DNA from: Acidihalobacter ferrooxydans
GTDB taxonomy: Bacteria; Pseudomonadota; Gammaproteobacteria; DSM-5130; Acidihalobacteraceae
Reading direction: 5' to 3'
Assembly: GCF_001975725.1 (NCBI RefSeq)
Contig: NZ_CP019434.1
Coordinates: forward strand, 2,067,486-2,131,485
DNA length: 64,000 nt
Positions 4,407-55,960 of the stretch are shown here, piece by piece. Position 1 is the first letter of the stretch; the number at the start of each line of letters is the position of its first letter. Below the pieces are notes generated by a model that saw nothing but the letters and a program-made list of their open reading frames with translations, was not told the origin of the DNA and searched no databases. The position numbers and the translations under genes are program-made.

Positions 4407-5141
4407 TCAGTTGAACCAGTTATCCTTTCGCTTGCGAGTCAGCCGCGGCATCAACAAACCCAGAATCAAACCCACCAACAACACCCCGCCACCGGCCATG
4501 AACCAGCGCAGCAGCCCAGTATTGCGCAGTGTGGCATTCTCGCTGCTGACACTGGTTAACTGCCGCTCCAGAGTGGTCACCCGCACTTTCAGCTTATCGT
4601 TGGCATCAGCCATAGCGACAGCATTTTTCGCCGTCTTGCGCAAGGTCTGATATTCCTGCTGGAGACTATCAAAGCGGCTGCGTAAAGCCGCATCAGCCTG
4701 TACCTTTGCTGTCAATTCGTTTTTGGTCTTGGCCAGTGTTTGTTGAGCTGTCTTCAGCTTCGCATCCGCTGCCGCAACAGCTTGATGCGCCTGGGCAAGC
4801 TGCGCACGGGCAGCCGGTCGATCCATCAGAAAGCGGGTCAGAACCCATCCACTGACCCCACTGGATGTTTTGACTTCGCTATAACCGTTTTTCGCATTTT
4901 GTTGCAAAACCGTCACTCGATCACCACTGCTGAGCATGCTTAGAATCTGGTGTCCCAGCCCAGGGCCGGAGCGCAGCGTGATTTGAAATTGGTCGGTCAC
5001 ATAACGTGTAGGGTGTGTCACCGGAGCACTGGCCGTCGGCGCAGATGCATCGGTTGCGGCCGCAACCGCCGCCTGTGGCGCGCCGGTCAGGCACACCCCG
5101 CAGAGCAATACAGCCATGCCGGCCAAACGCGAACTATCCAT
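4407..5141 (-). CDS. SH3-domain membrane protein (YgiM/TIGR04211 type)
   Basis: A 244-residue protein of the bacterial SH3-domain family found beside envelope genes in gammaproteobacteria. An N-terminal signal segment (MAVLLCGVCLTGAPQAA) is followed by an SH3b domain (about residues 45-110: LRSGPGLGHQIL, then GWVLTRFL). Next come a long Ala/Lys/Gln/Leu-rich coiled coil and a C-terminal membrane anchor (WFMAGGGVLLVGLILGLLM) ending in a basic tail. The ATG at 5141 is chosen because it has a GGGGGA ribosome site 6-7 bases upstream and starts just before the signal segment. The open frame runs further upstream only because it passes through repeat elements. A role in peptidoglycan or envelope organisation is inferred from the domain only. 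Confidence 0.8.
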   Translation of the reverse strand: MDSSRLAGMAVLLCGVCLTGAPQAAVAAATDASAPTASAPVTHPTRYVTDQFQITLRSGPGLGHQILSMLSSGDRVTVLQQNAKNGYSEVKTSSGVSGWVLTRFLMDRPAARAQLAQAHQAVAAADAKLKTAQQTLAKTKNELTAKVQADAALRSRFDSLQQEYQTLRKTAKNAVAMADANDKLKVRVTTLERQLTSVSSENATLRNTGLLRWFMAGGGVLLVGLILGLLMPRLTRKRKDNWFN

Positions 5142-5179
5142 AAATCCCCCGCTCATTCGAGTGCTCGATACTAGCTCGA

Positions 5180-5328
5180 ATGTTTCATAACTACCACCGA
5201 TCTCGCGGGTCTCTTGGTGCCACAAAGGATATTTCCTCAGTTGGCCGTAGTCGCCGATACGCCGCTCCTTCGGAAATGCCCTTGTGTAAGCCATATCCAG
5301 CGCGATATCAGCACTAATTGTGAAGCAT
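5180..5328. repeat. MITE-like inverted-repeat element, family A, copy 1
   Basis: Non-coding element starting atgtttcataac and ending attgtgaagcat (imperfect inverted ends). A diverged copy lies at 51446-51624; both share the blocks atctcgcgggtc, ggatatttcctc and atccagcg. It sits about 40 bases upstream of the SH3 gene start, so it may supply or disturb its promoter. Confidence 0.65.
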
Positions 5329-5340
5329 CCGGGCGACGAA

Positions 5341-5501
5341 GCCTGGCGGACTTGGAAAGAATCGGCTGCGGCAATGGGATAATGAGCCCACAACCCGCGC
5401 TTTTTCGTCGAATAGAACCCCTATTGTCCTCAAAAGAGCGAGAAACTGTCTCCATTCCCCACTCGCCTCGCTAAGATGCTCTCAGTCCGACAGGCTTGTA
5501 G
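5341..5501. repeat. MITE-like inverted-repeat element, family B, copy 1
   Basis: About 160 bp, bounded by gcctggcggacttgg at the left and gtccgacaggc near the right end. The second copy at 51723-51889 has better preserved ends. The internal block aaagaatcggctgcgg and the following bases are nearly identical in the two copies. It lies only 12 bases from family A copy 1. Confidence 0.7.
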
Positions 5502-5947
5502 CACAGCGGACCACACCCAGCCGATGGCCACACAACGACCAAAATCGGCAAACAGCACGCTATGCTCCGATTCTATCTCAATGATCTTTCGCAACCTGAT
5601 TCCACCGTTTCTGACCCGCACTTCATGTGCCACAACATGTTACGACTGCGGTTTGATCACCAGGGCAGTTCCAACGAAATCGACCGGATACCTGCTGCAT
5701 AGCGGCGAATACCTCGAAGACGGAGTAGAGGTGATCGTGTGCAAGCGTAACCTGCTCAGGCATATCATCCAAACCGATAGTGGCGCTGTCGATCTCAAGA
5801 CGCCGAAGGCTCATATCTTCGAAGCACGATGCCTGCTCCAACAAAGACCTGATTCCGCCATGTCAGAATCGGCACAAAGCCGTGAGGCGCGGATATGATT
5901 CCGCGATCGCGTCCCAAGCGCTTTCTGTTAAACTTCGCGTGCAGCAA
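5502..5947. other. Stretch with no confident gene
   Basis: About 450 bases between the repeat pair and tRNA-Arg. Short open frames exist on both strands; one on the minus strand (5623-5844) has a protein-like composition, but none has a ribosome site, a recognisable domain or a consistent frame over the whole stretch. It may hold the remains of a decayed minus-strand gene. Confidence 0.4.
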
Positions 5948-11224: not shown

Positions 11225-11548
11225 ATGAACAAAGCCAAGAAGTATTCCCCTGAGGTCCGTGAGCGTGCGGTGCGTTTGGTGCAGGAGCGCCGTGGCGAGT
11301 ATCCCTCGTTGTGGTCGGCGGTGGAGTCGATTGCGCCGAAGATCGGCTGTTCGGCCAACACCCTGCATGAATGGGTCAAGCGGGCCGAGGTCGATGGCGG
11401 GACGCGCCCGGGTACGACGAGCGCCGAAGCCCAGCGCATCAAGGAGCTGGAGCGCGAGAACAAGGAGTTGCGCCGGGCCAATGAGATCCTGCGCACGGCC
11501 AGCGCTTTTTTCGCCCAGGCGGAGCTCGACCGCAAGCTCAAGTCGTAA
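11225..11548 (+). CDS. IS3 transposase subunit OrfA
   Basis: A 107-residue OrfA with an N-terminal helix-turn-helix ([20 protein letters not shown]) and a C-terminal leucine-zipper region ([19 protein letters not shown]). It binds the ends of the element. A T6 run followed by C at 11506-11512, before its stop, allows a -1 shift into the orfB frame. This would produce the OrfAB transposase, as is normal for the family. Confidence 0.9.
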
Positions 11549-12492
11549 GCCGCTACGCGTACATCGATCAACATCGCGACGCCTTTGGGGTCGAGCCGAT
11601 CTGCCGTGTGTTGCAGATCGCCCCGTCGGCGTATCGACGTCATGCCGCAAGGCGGCGCAGCCCTGCGTTGCGCAGCGCCCGGGATCGACGTGATGAGACA
11701 CTGCTGCCCGAGATCGAGCGCGTGTGGCAGGCCAACCAGCAGGTCTACGGTGCCGTGAAGGTCTGGAAGCAGCTCCGGCGCGAAGGCATTGCTGTGGCCC
11801 GCTGCACGGTCGAGCGGCTGATGCGCCGCCAGGGCCTGCGCGGCGTCATTCGCGGCAAGGCGGTGCGCACCACGATCAGCAACCCCGCGGCTCCGTGTCC
11901 CCTGGATCGGGTCAACCGCCAGTTCACGGCCGAGCGGCCCAACCCGCTGTGGGTCTCCGACTTCACCTACGTCTCGACTTGGCAGGGCTGGGTGTATGTC
12001 GCCTTCGTCATCGACGTGTTTGCCCGTTATATCGTCGGCTGGCGCGTGAGCCGCACGATGACCACGGACTTCGTGCTCGATGCGCTGGAGCAGGCCCTCT
12101 ACGCCCGTCAGCCCGAACGCGACGCCTTGATCCACCACAGCGACAAAGGGTCTCAATATGTCAGCATCCGTTACGCCGAACGACTCCAGGAGGCCGGTAT
12201 CGAACCCTCCGTCGGCAGCACGGGCGACAGTTACGACAATGCTCTGGCCGAAACGATCAACGGCCTGTACAAGGCCGAAATCATCCATCGGCGTGGCCCC
12301 TGGAAATCCGCCGATGCCGTCGAGTGGGCCACCTTGGAATGGGTGTCCTGGTTCAACAACCAACGCCTGATGGAACCCCTGGGCTATATCCCGCCCGCAG
12401 AAGCTGAGGCACTGTATGGTCCGTCCTCCCAAAGCAAGCGCTTTGACCGTGTAGAGATAAGTGGGTCTGCATCAATGTATTCGGCTTCGTGA
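11509..12492 (+). pseudogene. IS3 transposase OrfB, C-terminus displaced by IS110
   Basis: DDE integrase domain in the -1 frame relative to orfA, open from the T-run at 11506. Catalytic residues are seen in WVSDFTYVSTWQGW (first Asp), LIHHSDKGSQY (second Asp) and SYDNALAETINGLYKAE (Glu). After PAEAEALY at about 12417 the frame enters the IS110 end and closes at 12492 with about 25 foreign residues. The native tail lies at 13838-13888. All catalytic residues lie upstream of the break, so some activity cannot be excluded. Confidence 0.85.
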
Positions 12493-31901: not shown

Positions 31902-32178
31902 GAGAGAGCCGCGATACCTGAACGTTCCCTATAACCCTTGTTAATATCTGGATAGCCATCGGTCTGTTGGCGTTCACTACGAGCCTTTCGGGCTTGGAGA
32001 ATCATGGCAAGGCGCATGGGCATAGAAGCCAGTCCCCCGATCATGTGAGGACAATAAACGAAACATGCCCCATCGCCGCAATCGGATTTTTCAAAGTCCG
32101 ACAGACTCTTGGAGTATCCAGCCAGTTCACAAGCCTCTGCGCGAGGCATTGGTTTTCTGTATCTGCCCGGAGTGCAAC

Positions 32179-50058: not shown

Positions 50059-50739
50059 TCATCCAGCGAGCCCCTGATAAGGCGTCGGATCGTTCACGCC
50101 AGCTTCCGCAAAGCCTTGAGCACGCAGGCGGCAAGCATCACAACGTCCGCAAGCACGCCCGTCGCTGTCCGCCTGATAGCAACTCACGGTCTGTGCATAA
50201 TCAACACCCAATGCGAGACCCGTTTGAATAATCTGCGCCTTGCTCAATGCAATGAGCGGTGCCTGTATGGTCATTCGCCCACCCTGAACGCCCACTTTGG
50301 TTGCCAGATTGGCGAGCTGCTCGAAAGCCTCGATAAAGGCAGGCCGACAATCCGGATACCCCGAATAATCGACGGCGTTAACGCCGATAAATATATCCCG
50401 TGCGCCGAGCACTTCGGCCCAACCCAGGGCCACGGACAGAAATACGGTATTTCGTGCAGGCACGTAAGTCACCGGAATGCCTTCTTCTGCCGTCTCCGGC
50501 ACCGCAATCGTCACATCGGTCAGCGCAGAACCGCCAATTGCACTCAAATCAAGCCGAACAAGACGATGTTCAGTCGCATGGCCTGCTGTGGCAACACGTT
50601 GTGCGGCTCTCAACTCTGCATTATGACGTTGCCCGTAATCGAAACTCAGAGCATAACAGGCATAGCCTTGTGCGCGCGCCATCGCGAGCACCGTAGCCGA
50701 ATCCAACCCACCCGATAGCAATATGACGGCTTTTTTCAT
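50059..50739 (-). CDS. queC: 7-Cyano-7-deazaguanine synthase
   Basis: A 226-residue ATP-dependent enzyme of the queuosine/preQ1 pathway, converting 7-carboxy-7-deazaguanine to preQ0. The PP-loop is [13 protein letters not shown], and zinc-binding cysteines occur in [20 protein letters not shown]. Other motifs: [20 protein letters not shown] and [18 protein letters not shown]. It overlaps queE by four bases. Confidence 0.96.
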
Positions 50740-51410
50740 CGCCCCGGTTCGTCTCCCCAGAGGTATTTGTGCAATTGGACTTGCATCCGGACATGCAAGC
50801 GATCATTCAGTATCCATTCGGCGAGCTCGCGCGGTGACAGGCGCCCATGTACAGGCGACATCAACACCTCGACACGATCCATTAACCCGTGCTCGCCGAG
50901 TCGTTCGCGCGCCCATTCGTAATCAGATCGATCAGCGATCACCAGCTTGATCTGATCCAGAGCACTCAAATAGTTGAGATTATCCCAAAGATTACGCTCG
51001 GACTCACCCGATCCAGGTGTTTTCAGGTCAATCACCTTACTTACCCTCGGATCGACTCCGGCCACATCGAGCGCACCGCTTGTCTCAAGCGAAAGCACAT
51101 ACCCCTGATCACAGAGCAACGTCATGAACCTATGTACGTTACGTTGCGCCAAGGGTTCGCCGCCAGTGACCGTCACATGACGGACGCCAAATGCTTCCAC
51201 CTTGGAGCATATATCCGGTATATCCATCCACTCGCCGCCACTGAATGCGTACGCTGTGTCGCAATAACTGCACCGTAGCGGACACCCTGTCAGTCGGACG
51301 AATACGGTGGGCCAACCGACGCTGCGCGCCTCACCTTGCAGGGACAAAAAAATTTCGGTAATCCGCAGACGCAATGATTCAGCGGACCCAATAGGAATAG
51401 TCGTGCTCAT
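50736..51410 (-). CDS. queE: 7-Carboxy-7-deazaguanine synthase
   Basis: A 224-residue radical SAM enzyme of the queuosine pathway. The cluster motif is [16 protein letters not shown] (CxxxCxxC). [20 protein letters not shown] at the N-terminus and [11 protein letters not shown] are typical. It is the first gene of the queE-queC pair. Its upstream region is occupied by a repeat element starting at 51446, which must contain or adjoin its promoter. Confidence 0.95.
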
Positions 51411-51445
51411 ATCAAGAAACTGACGCTGATTAAGACATGGCCCCT

Positions 51446-51624
51446 ATGTTTCACAACGACCGCCAATCTCGCGGGTCCATTGATTCCACGAGGGATATTT
51501 CCTCTGTCGGTCGTAATCACGGATACGCCGATCCTTCGCTGTCCCGATCTTTCGCTGTCCCGATCTTTCGCTGTCCTTTGTGAAACCCCTATCCAGCGTG
51601 ATACCAGCACTCGTTATGAAACAT
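51446..51624. repeat. MITE-like inverted-repeat element, family A, copy 2
   Basis: Ends atgtttcacaac and gttatgaaacat are inverted repeats. Compared with copy 1 at 5180-5328 it is about 30 bases longer, mainly because it holds three tandem copies of a 16-base unit (cgatctttcgctgtcc, about 51529-51577). It lies 35 bases upstream of queE. Confidence 0.7.
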
Positions 51625-51722
51625 TCGGTAAAGAACAATCGGGTAATCGTTACGCGTGGACATTTCAATGCGACGCGCCGATCTATCATTGAGAACCCGT
51701 GTGAAATAGCGCGCCATCAAAC

Positions 51723-51889
51723 CTAGGAGCCTGTCAGACTTGGAAAGAATCGGCTGCGGCGATGGGATAATGAGCCCATTTCCCCGCGCTTTTTAGTCGA
51801 ATAGAACCACTCGTCCTCAAAAGAGCGAGAAACTGGTCTCCATTCCCCACTCACCTCGCTTCGATCCTCCAAGTCCGACAGGCTCCTAG
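51723..51889. repeat. MITE-like inverted-repeat element, family B, copy 2
   Basis: Bounded by ctaggagcctgtcagactt and its complement ending ctcctag at 51889, one mismatch in 22 bases. The outer ctag is palindromic and could be the target site or its duplication. The interior matches copy 1 at 5341-5501 closely. It ends 36 bases before the cpoB stop. Confidence 0.8.
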
Positions 51890-51925
51890 CGCACGCGGAT
51901 CAGCCTTAAAGGTTGCGGAGTAAAA

Positions 51926-52771
51926 TCAGTGTCCTTCACTCTTCATGCGACTAAGACGGTCCGCTGCCAAGCGCGCTGATGTCGTACCTGGATACTGACT
52001 GACTACGGTCTCCAGGGTTTTACGCGCCGCAGCCCACTGCTTGAGCTCATATTGGCAATAACCCACCTTGAGCAAGGACGCCGATACCTTGTTGCTTTGC
52101 GGGTAATTGTTTACCACTTTCTGAAACTGTGCCAAAGCCTGAGAATATTGCGTTTCGACGTACAGGGCTTCGCCGGTCCAGTACTCCGCATTCGCAACAT
52201 AAGGGCTCTGCGGATATTTTTTTTCAAAAGTTTTAAATGCGCTGATCGCAGACTGGTAATGACTGTTCTTCAATAAGTCGAACGCCTGCTGATAGGCCGT
52301 CAAATCCTTCCCGTTGTAGGCAGCGGAGACAGTTGCGGATTGGTTTGAAGCCGTTGTCGACGGCGCAACGCTGGCCGCTCCATTCCCTGTCGTGCCGGAA
52401 GCCGGTATGGCGACACCGGGCACGCCGCCGCTATTGCTCGTATTGCTCATCGGCATGACGACACTGTTGCCAGAACCACCTGCGGCAGCTTCAAGAGCCT
52501 GCAAGCGTTGATCGGTACTCATGTAAAGCTGACGTTGACGGTTCCGCAGAGTGTCAATCTCGTGTTGCAGGACCTGGTTTTTCCCTCGCAATTCTCGAAT
52601 TTGCTGTTGCAAATTACTGAGTTGCAGAGAGAACTGCACGAGCGCCTGCGAGTTACCAGCGCTTTGCGCCGAACTCGATTGCGAGGGATCAGCAGCCCAG
52701 CCCGGAGGCACTGCAGCCACCAGCATCGCAGCTGAAATCGCCGCACCAAGCGTTAGTCGAAATGCACGCAT
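51926..52771 (-). CDS. cpoB: CpoB (YbgF)-type cell-division coordinator
   Basis: A 281-residue periplasmic protein: signal peptide (MRAFRLTLGAAISAAMLVA), a trimerising coiled coil (LSNLQQQIRELRGKNQVLQH), a Ser/Thr/Gly linker, and a C-terminal TPR domain (AYQQAFDLLKNSHYQSAISA, then EYWTGEALYVETQYSQALAQ). In E. coli it links Tol-Pal and PBP1B to coordinate outer membrane constriction with peptidoglycan synthesis. It is last in the tol-pal run. Confidence 0.93.
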   Translation of the reverse strand: MRAFRLTLGAAISAAMLVAAVPPGWAADPSQSSSAQSAGNSQALVQFSLQLSNLQQQIRELRGKNQVLQHEIDTLRNRQRQLYMSTDQRLQALEAAAGGSGNSVVMPMSNTSNSGGVPGVAIPASGTTGNGAASVAPSTTASNQSATVSAAYNGKDLTAYQQAFDLLKNSHYQSAISAFKTFEKKYPQSPYVANAEYWTGEALYVETQYSQALAQFQKVVNNYPQSNKVSASLLKVGYCQYELKQWAAARKTLETVVSQYPGTTSARLAADRLSRMKSEGH

Positions 52772-54793: not shown

Positions 54794-55960
54794 TTAGGAC
54801 TTCGGTTCAAATTTGAAATTCAGGGTAGCCTGAAACACCTTTGCATTGGGCGCAAGCGGTAACGGCGCGGAACGCCTCACGGCCGTCTCGACCGATCGGC
54901 GAAACAGATCATTACCGGTACACTGGCCAACGTGCAAACTCAGGATATACCCACCGCGATCTTGTTTCACAGTCACCTTGCAATACTGACCGGATTGGTA
55001 GCCGGGAGGGATCAACCAGTTACGTTGAATTTTTGCCACGAGTTGCCCGACCCAGTCGGCCTGCAACTGGCGATTGCGTCGTGCCTGAATCGCTTGCTCA
55101 CGCTTCTGTAACACAGCGGCTTCGGCGGCCACCTGTTGTTGGAGCAGTTTCTTTTCGGCGGCCGCCTGCTCGGCCTTGCGTTTAGCTGCCGCAGCGGCGG
55201 CCGCCTGCTCGGCCTTGCGTTTGGCTGCCGCAGCAGCGGCGGCCTGCTCGGCCTTGCGTTTGGCTGCCGCAGCAGCGGCGGCCTGCTCGGCCTTGCGCTT
55301 GGCTGCCGCAGCAGCGGCGGCCTGCTCGGCCTTGCGCTTGGCTGCCGCAGCAGCGGCGGCCTGCTCGGCCTTGCGCTTGGCTGCCGCGGCCTGCTCGGCC
55401 TTACGCTTGGCTGCCGCAGCGGCGGCCGCCTGCTCGGCCTTGCGTTTGGCTGCCGCGGCCTGCTCGGCCTTACGCTTGGCTGCCGCAGCAGCGGCTGCCT
55501 GCTCGGCCTTGCGCTTGGCTGCCGCGGCCTGCTCGGCCTTACGCTTGGCTGCCGCAGCAGCGGCTGCCTGTTCGGCCTTACGCTTGGCTGCCGCAGCAGC
55601 GGCTGCCTGTTCGGCCTTACGCTTGGCTGCCGCAGCAGCGGCTGCCTGTTCGGCCTTACGCTTGGCTGCCGCAGCAGCGGCTGCCTGTTCGGCCTTGCGT
55701 TTGGCTGCCGCGGCCTGCTCGGCCCTACGCTTGGCTGCCGCAGCAGCGGCCGCCTGTTCGGCCTTACGCTTGGCTGCCGCAGCGGCTGCCTGGCGCTGCG
55801 CGGTTTGGTCAATCAAATGTGCCTGAATGGGTTGTCCACCGGAAGCCGCCGGCGGCGTGTTATTCAAAGTCAAACCTACGCCGAACAATACCAATACGAG
55901 GAGATTGAGGACCAATGCCGCAGTCAGCGCCCACGGATGGCGTCGCAATTCACGCCACAT
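54794..55960 (-). CDS. tolA: TolA with a long Ala/Lys repeat domain
   Basis: A 388-residue inner-membrane protein. One N-terminal transmembrane helix (ALTAALVLNLLVLVLFGVGL) is followed by about 210 residues made of repeated KRKAEQAAAAAAA (13 residues) and KRKAEQAAA (9 residues) units. The C-terminal TolA domain comes last (LVAKIQRNWLIPPGYQSGQY). The repeats form the long helix spanning the periplasm. Their number and mixing of 39- and 27-base units give a slippery, variable stretch. Normal position between tolR and tolB. Confidence 0.95.
   Translation of the reverse strand: MWRELRRHPWALTAALVLNLLVLVLFGVGLTLNNTPPAASGGQPIQAHLIDQTAQRQAAAAAAKRKAEQAAAAAAAKRRAEQAAAAKRKAEQAAAAAAAKRKAEQAAAAAAAKRKAEQAAAAAAAKRKAEQAAAAAAAKRKAEQAAAAKRKAEQAAAAAAAKRKAEQAAAAKRKAEQAAAAAAAKRKAEQAAAAKRKAEQAAAAAAAKRKAEQAAAAAAAKRKAEQAAAAAAAKRKAEQAAAAAAAKRKAEQAAAAAAAKRKAEQAAAEKKLLQQQVAAEAAVLQKREQAIQARRNRQLQADWVGQLVAKIQRNWLIPPGYQSGQYCKVTVKQDRGGYILSLHVGQCTGNDLFRRSVETAVRRSAPLPLAPNAKVFQATLNFKFEPKS

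Follow-up and report, generated by a model that had tools for sequence, protein, structure and literature searches.

Two independent MITE families of Acidihalobacter ferrooxydans with a probable shared CTAG target

Several described systems resemble the two repeat families analysed here, denoted A and B. The RUP element of pneumococcus is a MITE that is thought to be mobilised in trans by IS630-Spn1, which has matching ends, and it is often located within other mobile elements (PMC2229807). A and B are likewise MITEs with presumed trans mobilisation by an insertion sequence (IS) with matching ends, but RUP has a TA target and relies on an IS630 transposase. The ERIC (127 bp) and YPAL/RU-2 (168 bp) repeats of enterobacteria share with B a conserved length, an intergenic location, a full-length imperfect hairpin structure, a non-autonomous nature and occurrence across genera. 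They differ from B in sequence and ends, and B is specific for CTAG and is found in several classes and, by single elements, in other phyla. RU-2 begins with TTCAGACTGCTGACAAACCCC (PMC2759123); B was rejected as a YPAL/RU-2 element since both sequence and ends differ in a comparison by eye with RU-2 in that paper.

Two IS families also come close. Family A has the first ~15 bp (CCCGGATNTTTCACAA) and the 4-bp target duplication of an intact IS1380 element of the same host, and thus resembles IS1380-derived MITEs, although its 153-bp interior is similar to the IS ends only at the terminal repeats and is itself quasi-palindromic. The 17-bp ends and CTAG flanks of B match those of 1.5-kb elements of Methylotetracoccus and Endozoicomonas, which points to the IS1182 family. 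This family includes IS1272, which replaces stem-loops without target duplication (PMC5678879), whereas B inserts canonically at CTAG and has no intact partner in the host.

The window (the whole stretch of 64,000 nucleotides of the A. ferrooxydans genome that was analysed) contains A followed by B, in the same order and orientation and with inverted ends present, at positions 5180-5501 and 51446-51889, as the preliminary description had stated (Table 1). The two A copies share 82% identity across a gap-free part of 93 bp, and the two B copies share 94% and 84% in two gap-free blocks. The extra length of the second A copy comes from a local tandem repeat, found in this copy alone among 30 aligned A copies; previously described as threefold, it was confirmed with a 16-bp unit. 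The spacing from A to B by model ends is 7 bp at the first site and 98 bp at the second, the spacers are unrelated, and the sites have no common flank. The junction of the first pair is decayed, reading CGACG and not CTAG, and the second pair is located within a 515-bp gap between the genes for the queE-like and cpoB/ybgF-like proteins. A third, decayed B copy occurs in the window without A. An ORF on the minus strand (4407-5393), named SH3-domain-like by eye, would span the first A copy into the first B copy if started at TTG; the true start of this gene is probably near position 5142. Elsewhere in the window, at 55077-55822, about 14 overlapping copies of a 39-bp direct repeat are found in register, perhaps encoding a repetitive protein.

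Table 1. Copies of A and B in the window and their surroundings
Feature	Coordinates	Strand	Basis
MITE A copy 1, IS1380-type ends, left flank CTAG	5177..5335	+	profile match 5180-5332, 141 bits
MITE B copy 1, IS1182-type ends, adjoining A copy 1	5336..5503	+	profile match 5340-5500, 157 bits
MITE B, decayed, solitary (without A)	31978..32108	-	profile match 56 bits; inverted repeat
queE-like (radical SAM) flanking gene, outside element	50736..51410	-	ORF; name by eye from sequence
MITE A copy 2, with 16-bp tandem repeat inside	51443..51632	+	profile match 51446-51628, 131 bits
16-bp tandem repeat TTCGCTGTCCCGATCT, ~2.6 units, inside A copy 2	51535..51577	+	read directly
MITE B copy 2, CTAG bordering both ends	51723..51893	+	profile match 51727-51889, 186 bits
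cpoB/ybgF-like TPR protein gene, flanking, outside element	51926..52771	-	ORF; name by eye

Both families are non-autonomous DNA transposons (MITEs) that are independent of each other, high in copy number and mostly intergenic: A and B are short, lack a transposase gene, have terminal inverted repeats and target duplications, and occur in many copies. A is about 153 bp long, with inverted CCCGAATGTTTCA ends flanked by 4-bp direct repeats of the type YTAR (e.g. TTAA, TTAG, CTAG). B is about 164 bp long, with 17-bp inverted ends (GAGCCTGTCGGACTTGG) and CTAG on both sides; its flanks are mostly CTAG or the transition products CCAG, CTGG and CCGG, the first two of which account for most of the decay. 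Median identity, taken over the 30 best copies per family, is 93% for B, including one identical pair, and 84% for A. Across the host genome, a single contig of 3.45 Mb, at least 40 scored copies of each family were found, and the B-end pattern had 224 matches, whereas a reversed control had 19. Profile searches of 60 stretches of 20 kb, spaced evenly to give an unbiased sample (34.8% of the genome), identified 54 A and 82 B copies, counting fragments and short B forms, which extrapolates to about 155 A and 235 B in the genome. The mean noncoding fraction, which like the intergenic null used below rests on a simple home-made gene caller, reaches 0.95 in A and 0.88 in B, compared to 0.21 for the sample. 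The short B form, of about 95 bp, is recurrent (L062, L063, L102 and others) and keeps both ends but not the middle.

An IS with the ends of A, which the preliminary description had proposed to look for, exists in the host genome. This intact IS1380 element (L089, 9924-11493) carries the ends of A (CCCGGATATTTCA) with a CTAG duplication on each side, and its transposase of 453 residues scores 402.7 bits against the NCBIfam IS1380 model (cut-off 180). Family A thus has both the ends and the target of an IS1380 element, and we infer that the IS1380 transposase moves A. A second, frameshifted IS1380 copy in the host adjoins a B element, the right CTAG being common to both.

For B, matching elements were found only in other genomes. 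A total of 84,980 species genomes were scanned for the B end followed by a base that is absent from most B copies of the host, and at least 119 contigs, from many phyla, matched. An element of 1499 bp in Methylotetracoccus (L167, 1490-2988) has B ends, CTAG and an IS1182-type transposase, with a match (E 7.5e-70) of 236 bits that lies under the NCBIfam cut-off of 270 bits, in a frame that is only partly open. A 1554-bp element in Endozoicomonas (L171, 3871-5424) also has B ends and CTAG; its interior is masked, and its first codons, read by eye, look like those of an IS1182 transposase. B therefore has the ends of IS1182 elements of other genomes, and an IS1182 transposase may be its mover, a proposal drawn from the ends because the host genome holds no intact IS1182 with B ends; the weak, broken IS1182-like pieces detected there lack them. 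An origin of B as an IS5-type or IS630-type MITE was rejected, since the IS5-like and IS630 elements of the host bear other ends. The IS630-type element (L134-L137) is present in three near-identical copies, one truncated, with ends TGTAGTGCGTCA, and at least one copy is inserted at CTAG. The window also contains, at 11503-11625 on the plus strand, a match of 91.6 bits to the Rfam ALIL pseudoknot, a frameshift signal of IS3-family elements.

The preliminary description had regarded the repeated order of A and B as a sign of joint origin, or of elements that travel together or target each other, with a random distribution of both as the alternative. Pair counts in the sample were compared with a null in which both families are placed uniformly at random within intergenic DNA. 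Five A-B pairs were seen within 10 bp against 0.35 expected (about 14-fold), seven within 25 bp against 0.91, and ten within 100 bp against 3.2; within 300 bp the count of 12 against 7.8 expected is not significant (P 0.10). The excess is therefore short-range and fades past about 100 bp. At this range the distribution is indeed non-random; at 300 bp it does not exceed the intergenic null, and most A and most B copies are solitary. A-A pairs are absent up to 100 bp in the sample, and B-B pairs are in slight excess at 10 bp or less, with 2 seen, both in one cluster, and 0.27 expected (P 0.03). When A is set forward, the 11 close pairs (the ten of the sample, which include the first window pair, plus the second window pair) split 4, 4, 2 and 1 over the classes of order and orientation. 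As orders are mixed among these pairs, the same order at the two window sites carries little weight. Close pairs are thus enriched in the sample, but order is not a general rule and spacing varies.

Nested and abutting copies indicate how such pairs may arise. In one case (L116/L046) B lies inside A at a subterminal CTAG of A, a clean insertion that repeats CTAG and leaves all of A in place; in another (L118) B is again inside A, with A kept on both sides, as a decayed version of the same arrangement. Conversely, A lies inside B at L049 and L043, with TTAA duplicated on both sides. A single CTAG or CCAG joins A, an A-like end or an IS1380 end to B at L028, L058/L101, L016 and the second IS1380 copy, and some close pairs (L119, L120, L063) do not meet at CTAG. 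This tetranucleotide is strongly depleted in the host sample (L061-L120), with 361 occurrences in 1.2 Mb compared to 916 expected from a Markov model, and of the roughly 189 intergenic ones 34 are held by B ends and 10 by A bodies or edges. By a rough estimate based on present-day sites, 82 B insertions at random CTAGs would strike an A-borne site some four times. This is of the same order as the pairs seen and fits them as a rough count.

We propose that the closeness of A and B very probably results from the shared target CTAG and from mutual insertion, and not from movement as one unit. An IS1380-family transposase would move A, which duplicates a 4-bp YTAR target, and B, with its IS1182-family ends, inserts at CTAG, duplicating either CTAG or the inner TA, as the palindrome conceals the difference. 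The scarce CTAG of this host also fits the YTAR pattern; a fresh B is always bordered by it, some A copies carry it within their ends or target duplication, and B in turn carries targets for A. Each family would thus offer landing sites to the other, giving rise to abutting and nested pairs in either order, and we infer that target sharing by itself accounts for the enrichment. The first window site probably arose as an abutting pair whose junction has since decayed, and the second probably represents two independent insertions into one intergenic gap. Mutual targeting therefore stands in a limited sense, as the short-range enrichment and the nesting both ways at CTAG or TTAA, and does not extend to the 98-bp pair, which is within chance. 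Counted against the shared-target explanation are the weak B-B excess, the pairs that do not meet at CTAG, the decayed junction of the first pair, the presence of two identical B copies in a host that has no intact IS1182 bearing B ends, the home-made gene calls, and a null that assumes uniform intergenic insertion.

A composite unit of A and B, transposed or duplicated as a single block, would explain why order and orientation are alike at the two window sites and why the families co-occur across genomes (see below). However, the spacers differ in length and sequence, flanks are not shared, only four of the 11 close pairs have the order and orientation of the window against about one in four by chance, the copies are mostly solitary, and A and B each have their own target and ends. 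With neither order nor spacing fixed and the excess fading with distance, a composite transposon, and with it the idea of joint origin or joint travel, is largely refuted and most improbable. The pairing could also be a mere by-product of the confinement of both families to the same short intergenic gaps, as noncoding positions make up more than 88% of A and B sequence, compared with an intergenic share of 20–21%, and as the pair count at 300 bp does not rise above the intergenic null. This is probably right for the second window pair, but as a general account it is unlikely in view of the 8-14 fold excess at 10-25 bp over that very null, the lack of excess among A-A pairs, which are equally constrained, and the nested insertions at CTAG and TTAA.

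Alternatively, B may be drawn to A by its structure, if IS1182-family transposases seek out inverted repeats, a behaviour reported for IS1272 (PMC5678879), which replaces stem-loops. A is quasi-palindromic and folds as a long imperfect hairpin, and two B copies sit inside A ends. Yet in both of these (L116, L118) A persists on either side of B and so does CTAG, intact or decayed, which makes them insertions rather than replacements; moreover, the flanks of B show no palindrome beyond CTAG, and A also inserts into B, which makes attraction by structure quite unlikely. Under the shared-target explanation, two unrelated MITE families can become mutual landing pads through one rare common target and so mimic a composite element.

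Of greater importance than the pairing is the wider B family, a hairpin of 164 bp with conserved internal loops that is present in a quarter of the genomes sampled from the class and also in other classes. B elements were aligned from 24 genomes, MAGs or copies, representing several proteobacterial classes and single examples labelled Nitrospirales and Deltaproteobacteria. The aligned elements measure 163-165 bp inside CTAG, a range that was the selection rule for the alignment yet is by far the commonest length among all paired ends, and they fold end to end. Compensatory change is seen in 29 of 50 consensus pairs, and the covariation score of 0.41 exceeds the 0.14 of shuffles and the maximum of 0.12 among slid pairings. 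A second set of 32 elements, found with the model from the first set and aligned separately, gave 38 of 56 pairs. Outside the B ends, G-T cells are no commoner than A-C cells (41 versus 49, and 23 versus 25), while G-U would be favoured if an RNA hairpin were under selection. This argues for a palindrome at the DNA level, maintained either through selection for DNA structure or through inter-arm repair. Repair from arm to arm as the sole cause is disfavoured by conserved unpaired positions (a CTAC-type loop near each end, and TCGTT/CGCCTC near the centre). A structured RNA function was rejected for B on the basis of these mismatches and of the Rfam search, which gave no match at A or B elements. 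With its strand-symmetric covariation, B can serve to test whether palindromic repeats in bacteria are kept as DNA structures or as RNA.

Within the class, the B model has matches in 89 of 369 genomes (72 genera); in a phylum-wide draw it matches 52 of 398. The A model matches in 31 of the 369. B is also present in 27 of these 31 A genomes, with 7.5 expected (P ~1e-14, a statistic that ignores clade effects and the tendency of some genomes to be rich in MITEs), in 22 of 24 at the genus level and in 19 of 21 at the family level. Repeated pairing thus holds as co-occurrence in genomes, but not as a fixed pair. In a genome of another class (L305), A and B are separated by 16 bp. When one B was used to query plasmids, a single record matched. 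A tentative and rather doubtful reading is that B, and perhaps A, belongs to a cross-class family of fixed-length DNA hairpins, in which loops and arm pairing are under selection at the DNA level and a host condition needed by both families places them in the same genomes; such elements would be structure-dependent and mobilised in trans, not chance deletion derivatives of an IS, and a transposase or host factor might read the extruded hairpin.

A and B belong to known kinds of element, B apparently without a curated family. In the open-access literature (ISfinder not covered) no paper was found that describes an element with the B ends, and nothing on point was found on MITEs of the IS1182 or IS1380 families. 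The only 14-base match to a B end in this literature is the primer OmcE_fwd (GAGCCTGTCGGACTTGGAAAT) of Geobacter sulfurreducens, near omcE (PMC11077965).
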